From contig NZ_BNAI01000003.1 of the NCBI RefSeq assembly GCF_014653215.1, positions 1 to 64,000 on the forward strand: 64,000 nucleotides of DNA, in the 5' to 3' direction. The position numbers and the translations under genes were made by a program. This stretch comes from Pseudolysinimonas yzui. GTDB lineage: Bacteria; Actinomycetota; Actinomycetes; Actinomycetales; Microbacteriaceae. Under the pieces are notes generated by a model, which saw only the letters and a program-made list of their open reading frames with translations, was not told the origin of the DNA and made no database searches. Positions 38,839 through 58,720 of this stretch are shown here, in pieces; position 1 is the first letter of the stretch, and each line of letters starts with the position of its first letter.

Positions 38839-40260
38839 CTACGCGGCGTCGGGGCCGTGGGTCCAGGTGCCGGCGACCATCGTCGCGTGCACCGGCATAT
38901 CGCGCAGGTTGTCGGGGTCGAGCGGGTCGGCGTCGACGATGACGAGGTCATCGGCTTGGACGTGGGTGGATGCGGCGAGCGCGGCTTCGGGCGAGATCGA
39001 CTGCTCGGGATGCCACGGGTCGCGCCCGTCACGCGAGCGCGTCACTGCGGCGGCCATCGTGATCCAGGGGTCGAGCGGTGCGACCGGAGCATCGGAGCCG
39101 AGCGACAGCTCGGCGCCCGCGTCGAGCAGGGAGCGGTACGCGAACGCCCGGCCCGTGCGACCCGACCAGTAGCGGTCGGCGACGTCGCGGTCATCCATCG
39201 CATGCTCGGGTTGCACCGAGGCGCGCACCCCCAGCGCGGCGAGACGCGGGAGGTCGGCATCCCGGATCAGCTGCACGTGCTCGATCGAACCCGGCACGCG
39301 GAGCTGCGCGAAGACGTCGAGCGCTTCGGTGACGGCGCGGTCGCCGATCGCGTGGATGGCGGGGGTGAGCCCGCGCGCGACCCCTTCGCGCGCTGCGGCG
39401 AGCAGCCCGCCCGGCGCGTAGGTCGGCAGACCCTGACCGCCGCCGCCGGGATAGTCGTCGAAGCACCACGCGGTGCGGGTGTTGAGGGAGCCGTCGGTGA
39501 ACAGCTTGTACGGGCCGACCTCGTAGAGCGGCGACGCGACCTCGGGCAGGGCCGAGGTGTGCGGGTAGACGGCAGCGCGCACCCGTAACCCCGAGAACCC
39601 GCCGGCGAACCGACGCGCCCACGAGCCCGGCGCATCCTCCATCTCGAAGTCGACGATGCCGGTCACCCCGCGCGCTGCCGCCGCCCGGGCGGCGTCGAGC
39701 GCCCAGCGGTCGAGCACGTCGGGCGACACCTCGGTGATGCGGCGGGTGAGGTCGAAAGCCGCCTGCTCGCGCAACAGCCAGTCCCCATCCGGGCGCCCCA
39801 GCATCCGCAGTGCCGCCCGGTTCGTCCACAGGCAGTGCACGTCACCCGACAGCAGAGCGACCGGGATGTCGCCGAACTCGAGCAGCTCGGGACTCGGCAC
39901 GTCGGGCCACAACCCGTCGCGGAACCCGGACGCGAGGAACACCACGCCGGGCTCCGGCGGCGTGTCGGCCAACGCGTCACGCACGAGCGACGCCGCCTGG
40001 GCCGCCGACGTCGCCGACGAGACGTCAAGTCTGCGAGCGGCCATCGCCCACTGCCCGAAGTGCACGTGATGATCCCAGAGCCCCGGCAGAACCCACCGCC
40101 CCTCGAGATCGACAACCAGCCCCGCAGGACCGGGAACCGACACGTCGGAGACAGGGATGCTGAAGGACGTTCGCGAGTCAATCGGGGTAGGGGTCCCCGC
40201 TCTTGACTCGCGAACGTCCTTCAGCAGCCCGCCCAGGAACCGGCCGTTGCGGAGGATCAC
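38839..40260 (-). CDS. Amidohydrolase (YtcJ-like metal-dependent hydrolase)
   Basis: The 473-residue amidohydrolase has first metal ligands HHVHF (GLWDHHVHFGQ), a late His in IHAIGDRAV and EHVQLI, and the final Asp in SLGSDAPV, as in YtcJ-like enzymes; the substrate is unknown. It starts at GTG 40260, overlapping the paiB-like stop. Oddity: residues 12-34, where this family normally has a beta strand, are encoded by the hairpin repeat at 40158-40226 (GLLKDVRESRAGTPTP and onward), so the N-terminal region may be altered. It is last in the run rpiB-nei-paiB-amidohydrolase. Confidence 0.88.
   Translation of the reverse strand: MILRNGRFLGGLLKDVRESRAGTPTPIDSRTSFSIPVSDVSVPGPAGLVVDLEGRWVLPGLWDHHVHFGQWAMAARRLDVSSATSAAQAASLVRDALADTPPEPGVVFLASGFRDGLWPDVPSPELLEFGDIPVALLSGDVHCLWTNRAALRMLGRPDGDWLLREQAAFDLTRRITEVSPDVLDRWALDAARAAAARGVTGIVDFEMEDAPGSWARRFAGGFSGLRVRAAVYPHTSALPEVASPLYEVGPYKLFTDGSLNTRTAWCFDDYPGGGGQGLPTYAPGGLLAAAREGVARGLTPAIHAIGDRAVTEALDVFAQLRVPGSIEHVQLIRDADLPRLAALGVRASVQPEHAMDDRDVADRYWSGRTGRAFAYRSLLDAGAELSLGSDAPVAPLDPWITMAAAVTRSRDGRDPWHPEQSISPEAALAASTHVQADDLVIVDADPLDPDNLRDMPVHATMVAGTWTHGPDAA
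40158..40226. repeat. Intragenic hairpin repeat, copy A of the two-copy core family
   Basis: Perfect 24-base arms (40158-40181 and 40203-40226) surround a 21-base centre containing CGGGGTAGGGGTCCCCG. The inner 33 bases (40176-40208) are identical to 57994-58026, but the outer arms differ in sequence while remaining perfectly complementary. The element spans 23 codons of the amidohydrolase. Confidence 0.85.
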
Positions 40261-40892
40261 TCCAGCCGCCGCATCTCAGCAGCGAGCGCGGCATCCGAGT
40301 AGGGGCCGTCGCCGGAGAGCGCCGCGATGATCGCCTCCCGCACCTCGGGGGGTTTGTTCTGGGAGAGCTTGGCGCGCGCATCGAAGCGGGTGACGCGGAT
40401 GCGCAGGCCGACGGTCCCGCGGGCGATGCGGCGGGCCTTCTCTTCGTCGATGTCGAGCGAGACGGGGGTCGGCATCCGTTTCTCGAAGTGATCGACGAGC
40501 TGCTCGAGGATGCGGAAGTTCTCGTCATCCGAGAGGATCTCGGGCACCCCGTAGAGGTGGGCGGTGACGTGGTTCCACGTCGGCACGAAGTCGCCCTCCG
40601 CGTACCAGTTGGGCGAGATGTACCCGTGCGGACCCTGCGCGATGACGAGCACCTCGTGCTGCCCGAGTTCGTGGGCCAGCTCGTCGGGGCGCCCGAAGTG
40701 GCTGACGAGCACGATCTCGTCGTCGCGCCGCCCTGAGCCTGTCGAAGGGTCGGTCTCCTCCAGCAGAGTCGCGTAGTGCGAGGCGACGAGTCCGGTGGAT
40801 GCCGGTGACACGTAGGTCATCCACGGGTTGCGGCGGATGAGCCGTTTCACCTCCGCCGGATCGGTGAGCAGGTAGTGGGGGGTGTTGCGCAT
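40257..40892 (-). CDS. PaiB-type FMN-binding negative regulator
   Basis: The product of about 211 residues has the PaiB pattern: MRNTPHYLLTDPAEVKRLI, then HGYISPNWYAEG, VPTWNHVTAHLYG and a C-terminal KLSQNKPPEVREAIIAAL. The family binds flavin and represses degradative genes in Bacillus; some members may be oxidoreductases. Oddity: residues encoded by 40731-40749 (around DPSTGSG) are a known-looking short palindromic repeat lying in a surface loop before DDEIVLVSH. It starts at ATG 40892, one base after the nei stop. Confidence 0.9.
   Translation of the reverse strand: MRNTPHYLLTDPAEVKRLIRRNPWMTYVSPASTGLVASHYATLLEETDPSTGSGRRDDEIVLVSHFGRPDELAHELGQHEVLVIAQGPHGYISPNWYAEGDFVPTWNHVTAHLYGVPEILSDDENFRILEQLVDHFEKRMPTPVSLDIDEEKARRIARGTVGLRIRVTRFDARAKLSQNKPPEVREAIIAALSGDGPYSDAALAAEMRRLE
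40731..40749. repeat. Short palindromic repeat within the paiB-like gene
   Basis: CCCTGAGCCTGTCGAAGGG, an imperfect palindrome seen as an interspersed repeat in many high-GC bacteria. Here it is read in frame on the minus strand to give the peptide DPSTGSG. Confidence 0.6.
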
Positions 40893-40893
40893 G

Positions 40894-41844
40894 TCAGACC
40901 TGATCTTTCGGGCACCAGTAGAGGTTGCGTCCCGCCATGACCGCCATCGCGATGGGGGTGCCGCACACCCGGCAGGGCTCGCCGGTGCGGTGGTAGACCC
41001 AGTGGCGGTCGTCGCGGGATGCCTTCGCCCGTTCCAGATCCTCGCCCTCAAGTCCGTCCATCGTGAGCATCTGACCGGTCTCGACCCCGAGTTTCAGCAG
41101 GTACGCCCAGTCCCGCCAGAGTGCCCGGGCGACGTCGGTGGGCAGGTCTTTGCCGGGCGTGTACGGATCGAGTCGCGCGCGGAACAGCAGTTCGGCGCGG
41201 TACACGTTGCCGATGCCGGCGACCACCTCCTGATCCATCAGCAGTTGCCCGATCGCGACGTTGCGTCGCCGCACGTTCTCGACGAAACGTCCTTCACCGT
41301 CGGGATCGACGAGCGGGTCGGGCCCGAGCCTGGCGATCGTCGCATCCACCTCTTCGATGGTCTGCACCTCGCACACCGTCGGGCCGCGCAGGTCGGCGAC
41401 CGCGACCGGGGTCAGCAGCCGCACCCGCACCTGGCCGATCGGCTCGGGCGGCCACACGTTGATCTCGGGCTGCAGCTGTTCGCTTTCGGCCATGCGCAGC
41501 CGGGTGCGGCGCGGCGCACCGATCGACCACGGCGAGTCCTCGTTCGCCCCGACGACCTTCGCGGCCCGCCCGCCGCGCTCCCCCGGCGACACCGGGTCGA
41601 CGGCGATGTCGCCCGCGAAATCCCACGCCCCGTACATGCCGAGGTGCACGCGCAACCACAGGTGGTGGTCGAACTCGAGGAACATCTGCTTGCCGACCGC
41701 GCGGGACTGCACGATCGCGTGCCCGTCGAGCCGAGCGGCTCCGGCGGTGAAACGCCCCTGCGGTGACGACACCGCCACGGGCGGACCGGTGAACGACCGC
41801 GCGAACTGCCGCGCGATGCGGTGGACCGAATGACCCTCCGGCAT
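40894..41844 (-). CDS. nei: Fpg/Nei-family DNA glycosylase
   Basis: The 316-residue product has catalytic N-terminal Pro2-Glu3 (MPEGHSVHR), conserved His/Asn in the helix-two-turn-helix (QEVVAGIGNVYRAELLF) and a C-terminal zinc-finger region CRVCGTP and WCPKDQV. It removes oxidised bases and nicks the abasic site. Oddity: the fourth zinc ligand, normally Cys in WCPxC, is Asp here, and the chain ends three residues later. It is translated between rpiB and the paiB-like gene with almost no spacing. Confidence 0.92.
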   Translation of the reverse strand: MPEGHSVHRIARQFARSFTGPPVAVSSPQGRFTAGAARLDGHAIVQSRAVGKQMFLEFDHHLWLRVHLGMYGAWDFAGDIAVDPVSPGERGGRAAKVVGANEDSPWSIGAPRRTRLRMAESEQLQPEINVWPPEPIGQVRVRLLTPVAVADLRGPTVCEVQTIEEVDATIARLGPDPLVDPDGEGRFVENVRRRNVAIGQLLMDQEVVAGIGNVYRAELLFRARLDPYTPGKDLPTDVARALWRDWAYLLKLGVETGQMLTMDGLEGEDLERAKASRDDRHWVYHRTGEPCRVCGTPIAMAVMAGRNLYWCPKDQV

Positions 41845-49473: not shown

Positions 49474-49483
49474 CTCCCTCGGT

Positions 49484-49556
49484 GGTCGAGTAGCGCCGCA
49501 GGCGCGTGTCGAGACCGGCCGTGGGTCTCGACACGCCGCTTCGCGGCTACTCGACC
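49484..49556. repeat. Inverted pair of GGTCGAGTAGC repeats after pepN
   Basis: Two 33-base copies in opposite orientation (49484-49516 and 49524-49556), seven bases apart, forming a large potential hairpin 10 bases after the pepN stop. Flanking CGGTGG/CCACCG extends the symmetry. Confidence 0.85.
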
Positions 49557-49568
49557 ACCGAGATTGAT

Positions 49569-56288: not shown

Positions 56289-57947
56289 ATGACTGCGCAC
56301 GCCGACGTGATCGTCATCGGAGCCGGATTGGCGGGACTCGTCGCCACCGCCGAGCTCATCGAGGCCGGCAAGCGGGTGATCGTGCTCGACCAGGAACCCG
56401 AATCCGGTCTCGGCGGTCAGGCCTGGTGGTCGTTCGGCGGGCTGTTCCTCGTGGACTCGCCCGAGCAGCGCCGGATGGGCATCAAGGACTCCCACGACCT
56501 CGCCCGGCAGGACTGGTTCGCGAGCGCCGAGTTCGACCGCGACGACGAAGACGCCTGGGGGCGCCAGTGGGCGGAGGCCTACCTCGCCTTCGCCGCCGGC
56601 GAGAAGCGCCACTGGCTCGCCGAGAAGGGCGTGAAGTTCTTCCCCGTCGTCGGCTGGGCCGAACGCGGCGGCTACACCGCGACGGGTCACGGCAACTCGG
56701 TGCCGCGCTTCCACATCACCTGGGGCACCGGCCCGGGCATCCTCGAGCCGTTCATCGCGGCGGTGCAGGCCGGCGTCGAGAAGGGGCTCGTCGAGTTGCG
56801 CTTCCGGCACCGGGTGGATGCCCTCACCGTCACCAAGGGCGCCGTCACCGGGGCGAGCGGCAGCATCCTCGAGCCGTCGGATGCCGCCCGAGGCGAAGCC
56901 TCCTCGCGTGAGACCGTCGGCGAGTTCACCCTCGAAGCCTCCGCGGTGGTCGTCGCGAGCGGCGGCATCGGCGGTAACCACGACCTGGTACGCAAAGCCT
57001 GGCCCGAGTGGCTGGGCACGGCACCCGAGACGATGCTGAGCGGCGTTCCCGCCCACGTCGACGGTCGCATGCTCGGCATCAGCGAAGACGCGGGCGCACG
57101 GCTCGTCAACGGCGACCGGATGTGGCACTACGTCGAAGGCATCCAGAACCACACGCCGGTCTGGGCCGACCACGGCATCCGCATCCTGCCCGGCCCGTCG
57201 AGTCTGTGGTTCGACGCCACCGGCCGCCGCCTGCCCGTGCCGCTGTTCCCCGGGTTCGACACCCTCGGCACCCTCGAGCACCTGCGCTCCACCGGGCACG
57301 ACCACTCCTGGTTCGTACTCACCCAGAGCGTCATCGAGAAGGAGTTCGCGCTCTCCGGCTCGGAACAGAACCCCGACCTCACCGGCAAGAGCGTGCGCGA
57401 ACTGCTGAAGCAGCGACTCGGCAAGGGCGCGACGGATGCCGTGGAGGCATTCAAAGAGAAGGGCGCCGACTTCGTGGTCGCCGAGAGTCTCGACGAACTC
57501 TTCGCCGGCATGAAGAAGCTCTCCCCCGACGTCGAGATCGACTTCCTTGAGGTGAAGTACGAGATCGAGGCGCGCGACCGCGAGATCGACAACACCTTCA
57601 CCAAGGACGCGCAGATCACCGCACTGCGCGGAGCCCGCCGCTACCGGGGCGACAAGCTCATCCGCGTCGCGAAGCCGCACAAGTTCCTCGACCCCGCCCA
57701 CCACCCGCTCATCGCCGTGAAACTGCACGTGCTCACCCGCAAGAGCCTCGGCGGCATCCAGACCGATCTCTCGTCGCGCGCCCTCGACGCCGACGGCACC
57801 CCCATCCCCGGCCTCTACGCGGTCGGCGAGGTCGCCGGCTTCGGCGGCGGCGGGGTGCACGGCTACCGCTCCCTCGAGGGCACCTTCCTCGGATCGTGCC
57901 TGTTCACCGGCCGTCAGGCAGGCCGCGCCATCGCCGACCAGCTCTGA
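56289..57947 (+). CDS. FAD-binding dehydrogenase (KstD-like)
   Basis: The 552-residue flavoprotein has N-terminal dinucleotide motif VIVIGAGLAGLVATAELIEAG, ESGLGGQAWWSFGGLF and the C-terminal GGGGVHGYRSLEGTFLGSCLFTGRQAGRA, as in the FAD_binding_2 family related to ketosteroid dehydrogenases and fumarate reductases. The substrate is unknown. GGGAAAGGGG precedes ATG 56289. A conserved-core hairpin follows 31 bases after the stop. Confidence 0.9.
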   Translation: MTAHADVIVIGAGLAGLVATAELIEAGKRVIVLDQEPESGLGGQAWWSFGGLFLVDSPEQRRMGIKDSHDLARQDWFASAEFDRDDEDAWGRQWAEAYLAFAAGEKRHWLAEKGVKFFPVVGWAERGGYTATGHGNSVPRFHITWGTGPGILEPFIAAVQAGVEKGLVELRFRHRVDALTVTKGAVTGASGSILEPSDAARGEASSRETVGEFTLEASAVVVASGGIGGNHDLVRKAWPEWLGTAPETMLSGVPAHVDGRMLGISEDAGARLVNGDRMWHYVEGIQNHTPVWADHGIRILPGPSSLWFDATGRRLPVPLFPGFDTLGTLEHLRSTGHDHSWFVLTQSVIEKEFALSGSEQNPDLTGKSVRELLKQRLGKGATDAVEAFKEKGADFVVAESLDELFAGMKKLSPDVEIDFLEVKYEIEARDREIDNTFTKDAQITALRGARRYRGDKLIRVAKPHKFLDPAHHPLIAVKLHVLTRKSLGGIQTDLSSRALDADGTPIPGLYAVGEVAGFGGGGVHGYRSLEGTFLGSCLFTGRQAGRAIADQL

Positions 57948-57978
57948 CGAAGCGAGCGCGCCCGGCCAGCGTCGACAT

Positions 57979-58041
57979 CCGAACCGATTCGCAAGTCAAT
58001 CGGGGTAGGGGTCCCCGCTCTTGACTTGCGAATCGGTTCGG
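57979..58041. repeat. Intergenic hairpin repeat, copy B of the two-copy core family
   Basis: Perfect 21-base arms (57979-57999 and 58021-58041) around a 21-base centre identical to that of copy A. The shared block is 57994-58026. It lies between the convergent flavoprotein and 58064 genes and could also terminate transcription. Confidence 0.85.
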
Positions 58042-58063
58042 GTGGCGGCGCCCCCGAGCAACC

Positions 58064-58720
58064 TCAGCGCAGGAGGTTCCACGCACGACGCTTCACCAAC
58101 ACATGGCCGCGGAGGGTGCTGAGCCGGGTCCAGGGCCCCGATTCATAGAGGCGCACGGCGTCGTCGCCCAGGAAGCCGAGGGCGAAGGCGGCGAAGGCGG
58201 CGCCGGAGGGGATGTGTTCCGCGCCGGGAATGGGGCGACCCCAGACCTCGCCGCGAACGCGACGCACGATCTGCTCACCGACGCCGTCCGGCACGGCCGC
58301 CGCGACATCCCGGATGCCGTCGCGAGCCGACTGTTCGACTGCCGCCGCCGGGATCTCGCCGAGCTGCTGCCACCCGCCGCGCGGCGGCGAGATGGCGGCC
58401 CAGGTGGCGGTGTTGACCTCCATCGGCAACCCGACCTTCGTGGCTCCTTCGGCCTGCGCGCGCTCGAGACGCTGCAGCAGGGAGCGCACCGGAACGACGG
58501 CGTCGAAGTTCGCAGCCTCGGTCAGGGCGAGGGTTCGCAGCCCGAGAACGGTGGCACTCTCATCGAGCAGGCCGGCGGGGGCGAACACCGAACAGTAGAC
58601 GGCGAGCACCCCGGAGCCGGCGATGAGACGCACGGATCCCTCCTCGACCCGCGCGGCGCGCGAGAGGTAGACCTGGAGATCATCGAGGGAGGGAGCATCG
58701 GCCAGAGTGAAGGTGCTCAT
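58064..58720 (-). CDS. Hypothetical protein (218 residues)
   Basis: A soluble alpha-beta protein without signal peptide: MSTFTLADAPSLDDLQVYLSRA at the start, AAVPDGVGEQIVRRVRGEVWGRPI in the middle, and WTRLSTLRGHVLVKR near the end. The pattern looks like a conserved actinobacterial family, possibly of regulatory use, but I cannot name it. TAGGAG four bases before ATG 58720 supports the start. Divergent from the thioesterase gene. Confidence 0.75.
   Translation of the reverse strand: MSTFTLADAPSLDDLQVYLSRAARVEEGSVRLIAGSGVLAVYCSVFAPAGLLDESATVLGLRTLALTEAANFDAVVPVRSLLQRLERAQAEGATKVGLPMEVNTATWAAISPPRGGWQQLGEIPAAAVEQSARDGIRDVAAAVPDGVGEQIVRRVRGEVWGRPIPGAEHIPSGAAFAAFALGFLGDDAVRLYESGPWTRLSTLRGHVLVKRRAWNLLR

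Follow-up and report, generated by a model that had tools for sequence, protein, structure and literature searches.

The 64,000-nucleotide stretch of Pseudolysinimonas yzui DNA analysed here (the window) contains two copies of a dispersed hairpin element of the Microbacteriaceae, which recurs in the spacer between infB and rbfA and occupies 15 other places in this genome. Its copies share a nearly fixed core flanked by arms that remain paired with each other and differ from copy to copy. Both window copies lie exactly where the original prediction had placed them, at 40158-40226 (24+21+24 nt) and 57979-58041 (21+21+21 nt), and they have 33 nt in common, consisting, as it had said, of AGTCAA, the core TCGGGGTAGGGGTCCCCGCTC and TTGACT. 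The perfect arms that it claimed beyond these 33 nt, a further 18 bp in the 40-kb copy and 15 bp in the 58-kb copy, were likewise found. The claim that the arms differ beyond the shared part holds for the outer arms, but next to the core they are more alike than had been stated, reading TTCGC[G/A]AGTCAA in both copies with the single difference compensated. When mismatches and G-T pairs are allowed, the stems comprise 28 bp (40-kb copy) and 31 bp (58-kb copy), and the core itself folds into a small inner hairpin, CGGGG-TAGGGGT-CCCCG. The features referred to below are as follows.

38839..40260, minus strand: amidohydrolase (Amidohydro_3), N-terminal frame open through the 40-kb hairpin
40154..40230, no strand assigned: whole 40-kb hairpin, 28-bp stem with one mismatch
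40182..40202, plus strand: fixed core within the 40-kb hairpin, the common 33 nt spanning 40176-40208
40257..41051, minus strand: FMN_bind_2 gene whose end, in its own sense, lies just before the 40-kb copy
56289..57947, plus strand: convergent gene at the 58-kb copy, FAD_binding_2
57969..58051, no strand assigned: whole 58-kb hairpin, stem of 31 bp including G-T pairs and one mismatch
57979..57999, plus strand: left arm of the 58-kb copy, perfect part
58000..58020, plus strand: fixed core TCGGGGTAGGGGTCCCCGCTC of the 58-kb copy; the shared 33 nt are 57994-58026
58021..58041, plus strand: right arm of the 58-kb copy, perfect part
58052..58062, plus strand: CCCCGAGCAAC on the gene side of the 58-kb stem (by eye, uncounted)
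58064..58720, minus strand: gene ending at the 58-kb copy; homologues in 18/18 relatives searched

For the gene at 58064..58720 no Pfam match was found at E 1e-4. Its stop codon is followed by GTTGCTCGGGG, which is CCCCGAGCAAC read on the minus strand, and variants of this string occupy the same place in a number of other copies (both by eye, the latter uncounted). With up to 3 mismatches the core was matched twice in the window, compared to 0.00 matches expected from 100 shuffles. Folding z-scores of the two hairpins range from -9.0 to -12.3 for RNA (both strands of each) and from -8.9 to -11.0 for DNA (three strands folded).

Copies in the Pseudolysinimonas yzui genome

The whole assembly (3.08 Mb, 22 contigs) was searched for the core. 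At up to 3 mismatches 16 copies were obtained, 13 of them exact and 3 with one change, as opposed to a single match for a reversed control pattern in the whole genome. All copies except one, the locus that we label L016 and which has no outer arm, are situated within long hairpins (15/16). A covariance model of 22 sequences retrieved, at E up to 0.1, the 15 full copies and the half copy, and additionally re-found one of the full copies on its other strand. At 15 of the 16 copies the core is preceded, at a distance of 21-78 nt, by the end of a gene in matching orientation; the remaining one (L001) is turned the opposite way. Abutting genes with Pfam matches include those for an amidase, two aldehyde dehydrogenases, a glycine dehydrogenase, an isopropylmalate synthase and others, plus infB. 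As these Pfam-matched genes have no evident common function, a reading of the copies as a regulon was dropped. In five copies (L003, L004, L006, L008, L013) the gene end reads TAACTCGGGG or nearly so, its TAA serving as the stop codon (by eye).

Two loci merit separate description. L016, which stands behind a 6-phosphogluconate dehydrogenase gene, retains the core and one intact arm; the second arm is gone and a different hairpin follows, which looks like the loss of one arm. L001 (C1:146702) and L014 (C1:142138) lie 4.6 kb apart and have the base pairs near the loop in common, including the same G-T pair, so that they are possibly recent duplicates. The copies cannot be dated, since this genome is the sole one of its genus in the comparison.

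Pairing is retained and arm sequence is not

Across the 15 copies that have stems, pairwise arm identity amounts to 0.52-1.0 at base pairs 1-8 and to 0.21-0.44 at base pairs 13-25 (background 0.28), with higher values again at base pair 12 (0.64, 0.47) and base pair 26 (0.74, 0.53). For the paired fraction, values up to base pair 26 mostly lie at 0.8-1.0 (lowest 0.60), followed by 0.53 at base pair 27, and stem length, counted across bulges and mismatches, is 25-33 bp. Taken together, the two profiles imply that pairing has been retained and arm sequence has not. The same is seen across several genera in an alignment of 22 sequences, picked from 40 elements for unbroken stems and standard loop length and thus somewhat flattering the pairing: changes on both sides are present in 24 of 26 long-stem pairs, the covariation score is 0.78, as opposed to 0.19 for shuffles and no more than 0.26 on sliding, and 92% of the cells of the whole structure are paired compared to 62% in shuffles. 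Arms identical in all copies, which the original prediction had named as evidence against itself, do not occur. Non-complementary flanks, its other such case, are found in one of the 16 copies (L016), the other 15 having paired stems.

Distribution in the family and the infB-rbfA spacer

The exact core is present in 22 named genomes, namely 15 of Cryobacterium, 4 of Agromyces, 2 of Microbacterium and 1 of Homoserinibacter, all four genera belonging to the Microbacteriaceae. A search of related genomes for the core, with an alignment of the arms, had been proposed with the original prediction. In 20 of the 22 genomes the site is the infB-rbfA spacer; the two Microbacterium cores are located elsewhere, one after a DUF3566 gene and one after a gene ending in KPPGTIEWE, which we take to be GMP synthase. 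Using the covariance model on a sample of 150 family genomes, with strict filters by which weak matches are lost, we obtained matches at E up to 0.001 in 10 genomes including this one, the other nine holding 1-2 each. In the genus of genome G100, 22 of 41 genomes were matched at E up to 0.01, and some of the spacers are identical to those of the named Cryobacterium genomes.

We further surveyed 79 infB-rbfA spacers, with 11 duplicate spacers excluded and the first 170 nt used if the rbfA start was not found (L071, L156). Some hairpin is present in 73 of them, and this core in 8 by a strict pattern that misses variants such as L073 and L159; the six spacers without a hairpin are 2-55 nt long. 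The median stem of the infB hairpins is 17 bp without the core and 30 bp with it. Within one genus, two species (L078, L079) carry a plain hairpin resembling the core in its 3' arm and its tail, and a third (L080) carries the core in a long stem. This suggests, short of proof, that the core may have arisen from an ordinary hairpin of the infB-rbfA spacer.

A second core family, GGCGGAGCTCCGCAAGCTCCGCAAGCC and variants thereof, was observed in the infB-rbfA spacers L081, L104, L116, L122 and L127, which come from two genera and have differing arms. It apparently follows the same design of fixed core and free arms.

Arm changes between sister species

To follow the arms over short distances, seven nearest-neighbour pairs, six of them Cryobacterium-set pairs and one an Agromyces pair, were drawn from the 39 usable sequences in which infB was covered by 1000 nt or more, and compared pairwise; infB divergence within these pairs is 1.7-3.2%, and 6-12% at fourfold sites. 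Hereby, 174 stem pairs are unchanged, 11 show single changes and 6 show double Watson-Crick changes. Indels comprise 8 that affect both partners in the two arms, of which 2 (L021/L041, with equal arm lengths) are probably alignment shifts, versus 2 confined to one arm. The core lost one base in one pair, where a 2-nt difference at the core edge is also found. Matched changes are exemplified by AAAAA/TTTTT becoming AAA/TTT and by TAAAAAGGG becoming TCAGGGG with the mirror change opposite. At the infB site, both arms thus change together between sister species and the core hardly changes.

The matched changes fit template switching from arm to arm combined with selection for pairing. A template switch that fixes a stem while retaining its loop is described in PMC8794818. 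Stepwise compensation contributes to arm change as well; for terminators of Bacillus cereus, compensatory evolution through GU is reported in PMC5381666.

Unmatched, one-arm replacements, which speak against arm-to-arm copying, were seen in the infB-rbfA spacers of four relatives (L029, L037, L177, L179), where the distal arm is swapped on one side only for strings of about 20 nt. The replacing string CTGCTGTGCATATTAACTGCG is common to L029 and L177, and that of L037 contains the inverted repeat GCGTCTA/TAGACGC.

Empty sites in relatives

At the 58-kb site, a homologue of the abutting gene is present in 18 of 18 relatives, and 11 of these keep the convergent partner. The spacers of these 11 measure -4 to 50 nt in nine cases, 109 nt in one and 272 nt in one, and in the compared relatives the two genes end within about one residue of where they do in this genome. 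Neither the 120 nt next to the stop codon nor the 11 spacers yielded a core, with the qualification that the 272-nt spacer (L208) twice contains a string, CGGGGTAGGCGTCGCCCGC, that is two edits from the core and in opposite orientation. Since the spacers are short and core-free in nine of the 11 relatives, the 58-kb hairpin is, as judged from these alignable neighbours, new at its site relative to comparable relatives, both arms included. Empty sites, which were to be sought according to the original prediction, exist here in the form of relatives that have neither arm. For the leuA copy, 0 of 18 relatives show the core in the 120 nt next to the stop codon.

REP-like inverted repeats (GGTCGAGTAGCG...CTACTCGACCACC) are present in the window at 49478-49562 and also in the spacer of L208, the orthologue of the 58-kb site, which they fill, with the two core-like strings between them. 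With one mismatch allowed, the REP-like 12-mer is enriched in the window (8 matches, 1.17 expected).

The 40-kb hairpin lies in frame in the N-terminal part of the amidohydrolase gene, a stretch of differing length in the relatives. The frame open through it would encode LLKDVRESRAGTPTPIDSRTSFSI, and the amidohydrolase Pfam match starts at residue 49. The locus was found in 17 of 18 relatives and was readable in 15, none of which has the core there (0/15); 11 relatives possess the amidohydrolase in tandem with an ordinary N-terminus. A profile of 11 relatives aligned nothing of the arm region, and hence yielded no ancestral arm at 40 kb.

Pairing of the core with its flank

At infB, the core (GAGCGGGGACCCC) pairs, in the sense of the gene, with its flank, which reads GGGGTCCCCGCTC or a variant thereof. 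This pairing exceeds the 95% shuffle level at 31 of 40 infB sites, and flank and core differ jointly in L017, L066 and L094 (by eye); in L065 the core equals the reverse complement of its flank except for one missing base. By its sequence, the infB core can thus pair with the gene-proximal flank to give a rival hairpin that would form earlier. Outside infB, none of the 15 copies of this genome is above the shuffle level (0/15), which leaves the constancy of the core at those places unaccounted for; with the whole core allowed as partner, 4 of 15 exceed it (L001, L003, L006, L008).

The non-Watson-Crick cells of the flank-core helix comprise, in sense, 32 G-T and 1 A-C, many of which come from a single position in one genus. 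The G-T pairs of the long stem prefer the strand antisense to the abutting gene, by 45 to 10 overall and by 15 to 4 in this genome (up to 3 core changes, stem score at least 11; L016, L029, L037 and L065 left out). The two-sided p values of 2e-6 (all) and 0.02 (this genome) are too small, as the counts share ancestry. A cruder arm alignment without bulges gives 38 G-T and 18 A-C, weaker and in the same direction as the bulge-allowing count. In a third count, made in sense at infB, core hairpins show 35 A-C and 15 G-T, and core-free hairpins, some of them within the rbfA coding sequence, 63 G-T and 49 A-C. A mutational cause of the strand bias in the long stem is possible.

Both biases, 32 to 1 in sense for the flank-core helix and 45 to 10 in antisense for the long stem, would be accounted for if the infB-rbfA element were two-faced. 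Sense transcripts would then form the flank-core hairpin first and antisense transcripts the long hairpin first, and the dispersed copies would keep only the antisense-facing half, blocking antisense transcription at gene ends. We put this forward tentatively and consider it rather unlikely; if true, each strand would obtain its own structure from the same DNA.

Origin of fixed core and free arms

The best explanation of the whole is, in our view, that of a dispersed element whose copies would have moved as complete hairpins. Through template switching during replication, a change in one arm would be passed on to the other, and selection would act against intermediates that do not pair, so that the arms would drift apart in a process preserving loop and pairing and not arm sequence. 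In RNA, the copies would act as 3'-end hairpins, that is, in transcript-end protection or as terminator-like blocks. For this reading taken in all its parts we see about an even chance. Stepwise compensation alone, in which a selected RNA hairpin has single changes restored via G-U without any arm copying, would explain the strong covariation, the wobbles favouring one strand and the fact that single changes are the largest class in the sister pairs (11), and GU-mediated terminator evolution is known from Bacillus cereus (PMC5381666). Against it stand changes of several bases or of length that are matched between the arms at a fourfold divergence of 6-12%, as well as 8 two-arm indels (6 without the doubtful pair) versus 2 one-arm indels, and we regard it as unlikely, if still worth serious consideration. 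An assembly or chance artefact is refuted by the recurrence of the core in 22 named genomes and the 0.00 matches expected by chance in the window.

The remaining alternatives concern the insertion itself. If the core had been inserted into the loops of hairpins already standing behind genes, the arms would be old terminator stems; the likeness among copies, which fades about 8-12 bp out from the core, and the infB medians of 17 bp (core-free) and 30 bp, roughly an old plus an inserted stem, agree with this. The empty 58-kb site weakens it at that one site, as the interval measures -4 to 50 nt in nine of 11 relatives, for which no long stem is reported, and the 40-kb copy lies within coding sequence; we therefore hold such insertion to be improbable. 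The original prediction that insertion of a fixed core cannot produce differing complementary arms was nevertheless too strong, because such arms could result if the core entered the loop of a hairpin that was already there, even though the empty site argues against it. It had offered instead either copying of a flank in inverse orientation or selection on pairing with compensatory change. Both are supported as processes in a standing hairpin, by the matched changes between sisters and by L065; copying of a flank at insertion is unsupported at 58 kb, where nine of 11 relatives have a spacer of at most 50 nt. That last scenario, in which the core landed beside a flank that was then copied inverted across it, is to our mind equally improbable. 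The near-identity of the L065 core with the reverse complement of its flank speaks for it, as does, weakly and by eye, the gene-side arm at 40 kb, which encodes LLKDVRE where relatives have (L)VDVLV. Against it stand the 58-kb flank, little or none of which is found in nine of 11 relatives, and the 11-relative profile, in which nothing of the 40-kb arm region aligns.

Function and movement

Judged by its position, the element probably has a role as a hairpin at RNA 3' ends. On reading, no T-run follows either window hairpin on either strand, and a terminator consensus scan, covering loops of 3-8 nt, gave no hit at the two; without a T-run, a classical intrinsic terminator is not supported. The antisense preference of G-T pairs in the long stem misfits a role at 3' ends that is purely of the sense strand. 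With regard to movement, Y1 transposase (PF01797) had 0 matches in this genome and is present in 5 of 14 control genomes.

Several further candidates were dropped. Phage carriage was rejected because the exact core occurs in no viral contig. Rfam families were rejected because the 13 matches at E up to 1 from 18 loci all concern microRNA models below their gathering scores, which we take as generic matches to long hairpins. A promoter function of TTGACT was rejected because two scanned 601-nt stretches contain no promoter-like site.

Comparison with known systems

How perfect stems keep their pairing amid sequence turnover is an old question. Here the same core recurs in at least 22 named genomes and at 16 sites within a single genome. 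It provides a nearly fixed reference for measuring the tempo of arm change, and the family allows template switching to be told from stepwise compensation in bacteria. It constitutes a test case for a folded structure that persists while most of its sequence turns over, and adds a dispersed palindrome with a recurrent home in the spacer of a housekeeping operon.

In REPs, the stem sequence is conserved among copies. Here such a conserved stem is not seen (identity 0.21-0.44 at base pairs 13-25), the core being fixed and the stem free, and the Y1 (RAYT-type) transposase of REP/RAYT systems was not found in this genome. The likeness to REP, REPIN and BIME palindromes (PMC3116915, PMC3733652, PMC8266576) lies in short palindromic repeats scattered between genes. 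A parallel to the infB-rbfA hairpin is provided by Enterobacteria, for which PMC2965389 describes a possible BIME-based attenuator upstream of rbfA.

Compared to intrinsic terminators, the element shares a GC-rich stem soon after the stop codon (stop to core 21-78 nt at 15/16 copies) and differs in that no T-run was seen, the stem is long and the fixed 21-nt core is common to several genera. Attenuators form mutually exclusive hairpins. At infB an attenuator-like arrangement is suggested, since the gene-proximal flank and 5' arm may pair with either the core or the distal arm, and a conserved, covarying second pairing is found there (31/40 sites); unlike in attenuators, there is neither a U-rich tail nor a known signal, and 0 of the 15 copies outside infB have the first pairing. 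Intrinsic and bidirectional terminators resemble the element also in having hairpins near stop codons, including between convergent genes, with compensatory stems (PMC5381666).

Among the titles and abstract openings searched, no family of this fixed-core, free-arm kind is described. Rhizobial small RNAs (PMC4414408, PMC3927594) may be a parallel, likened by wording alone, as the words "conserved loop" and "variable stem" occur in those papers. The element also resembles the template-switch RNA hairpins of PMC8794818, for which matched one-step stem changes with a retained loop are proposed. Those hairpins belong to rRNA and microRNA, whereas the present family is bacterial and dispersed, its stems measuring 25-33 bp in this genome and its 21-nt core pairing with itself.
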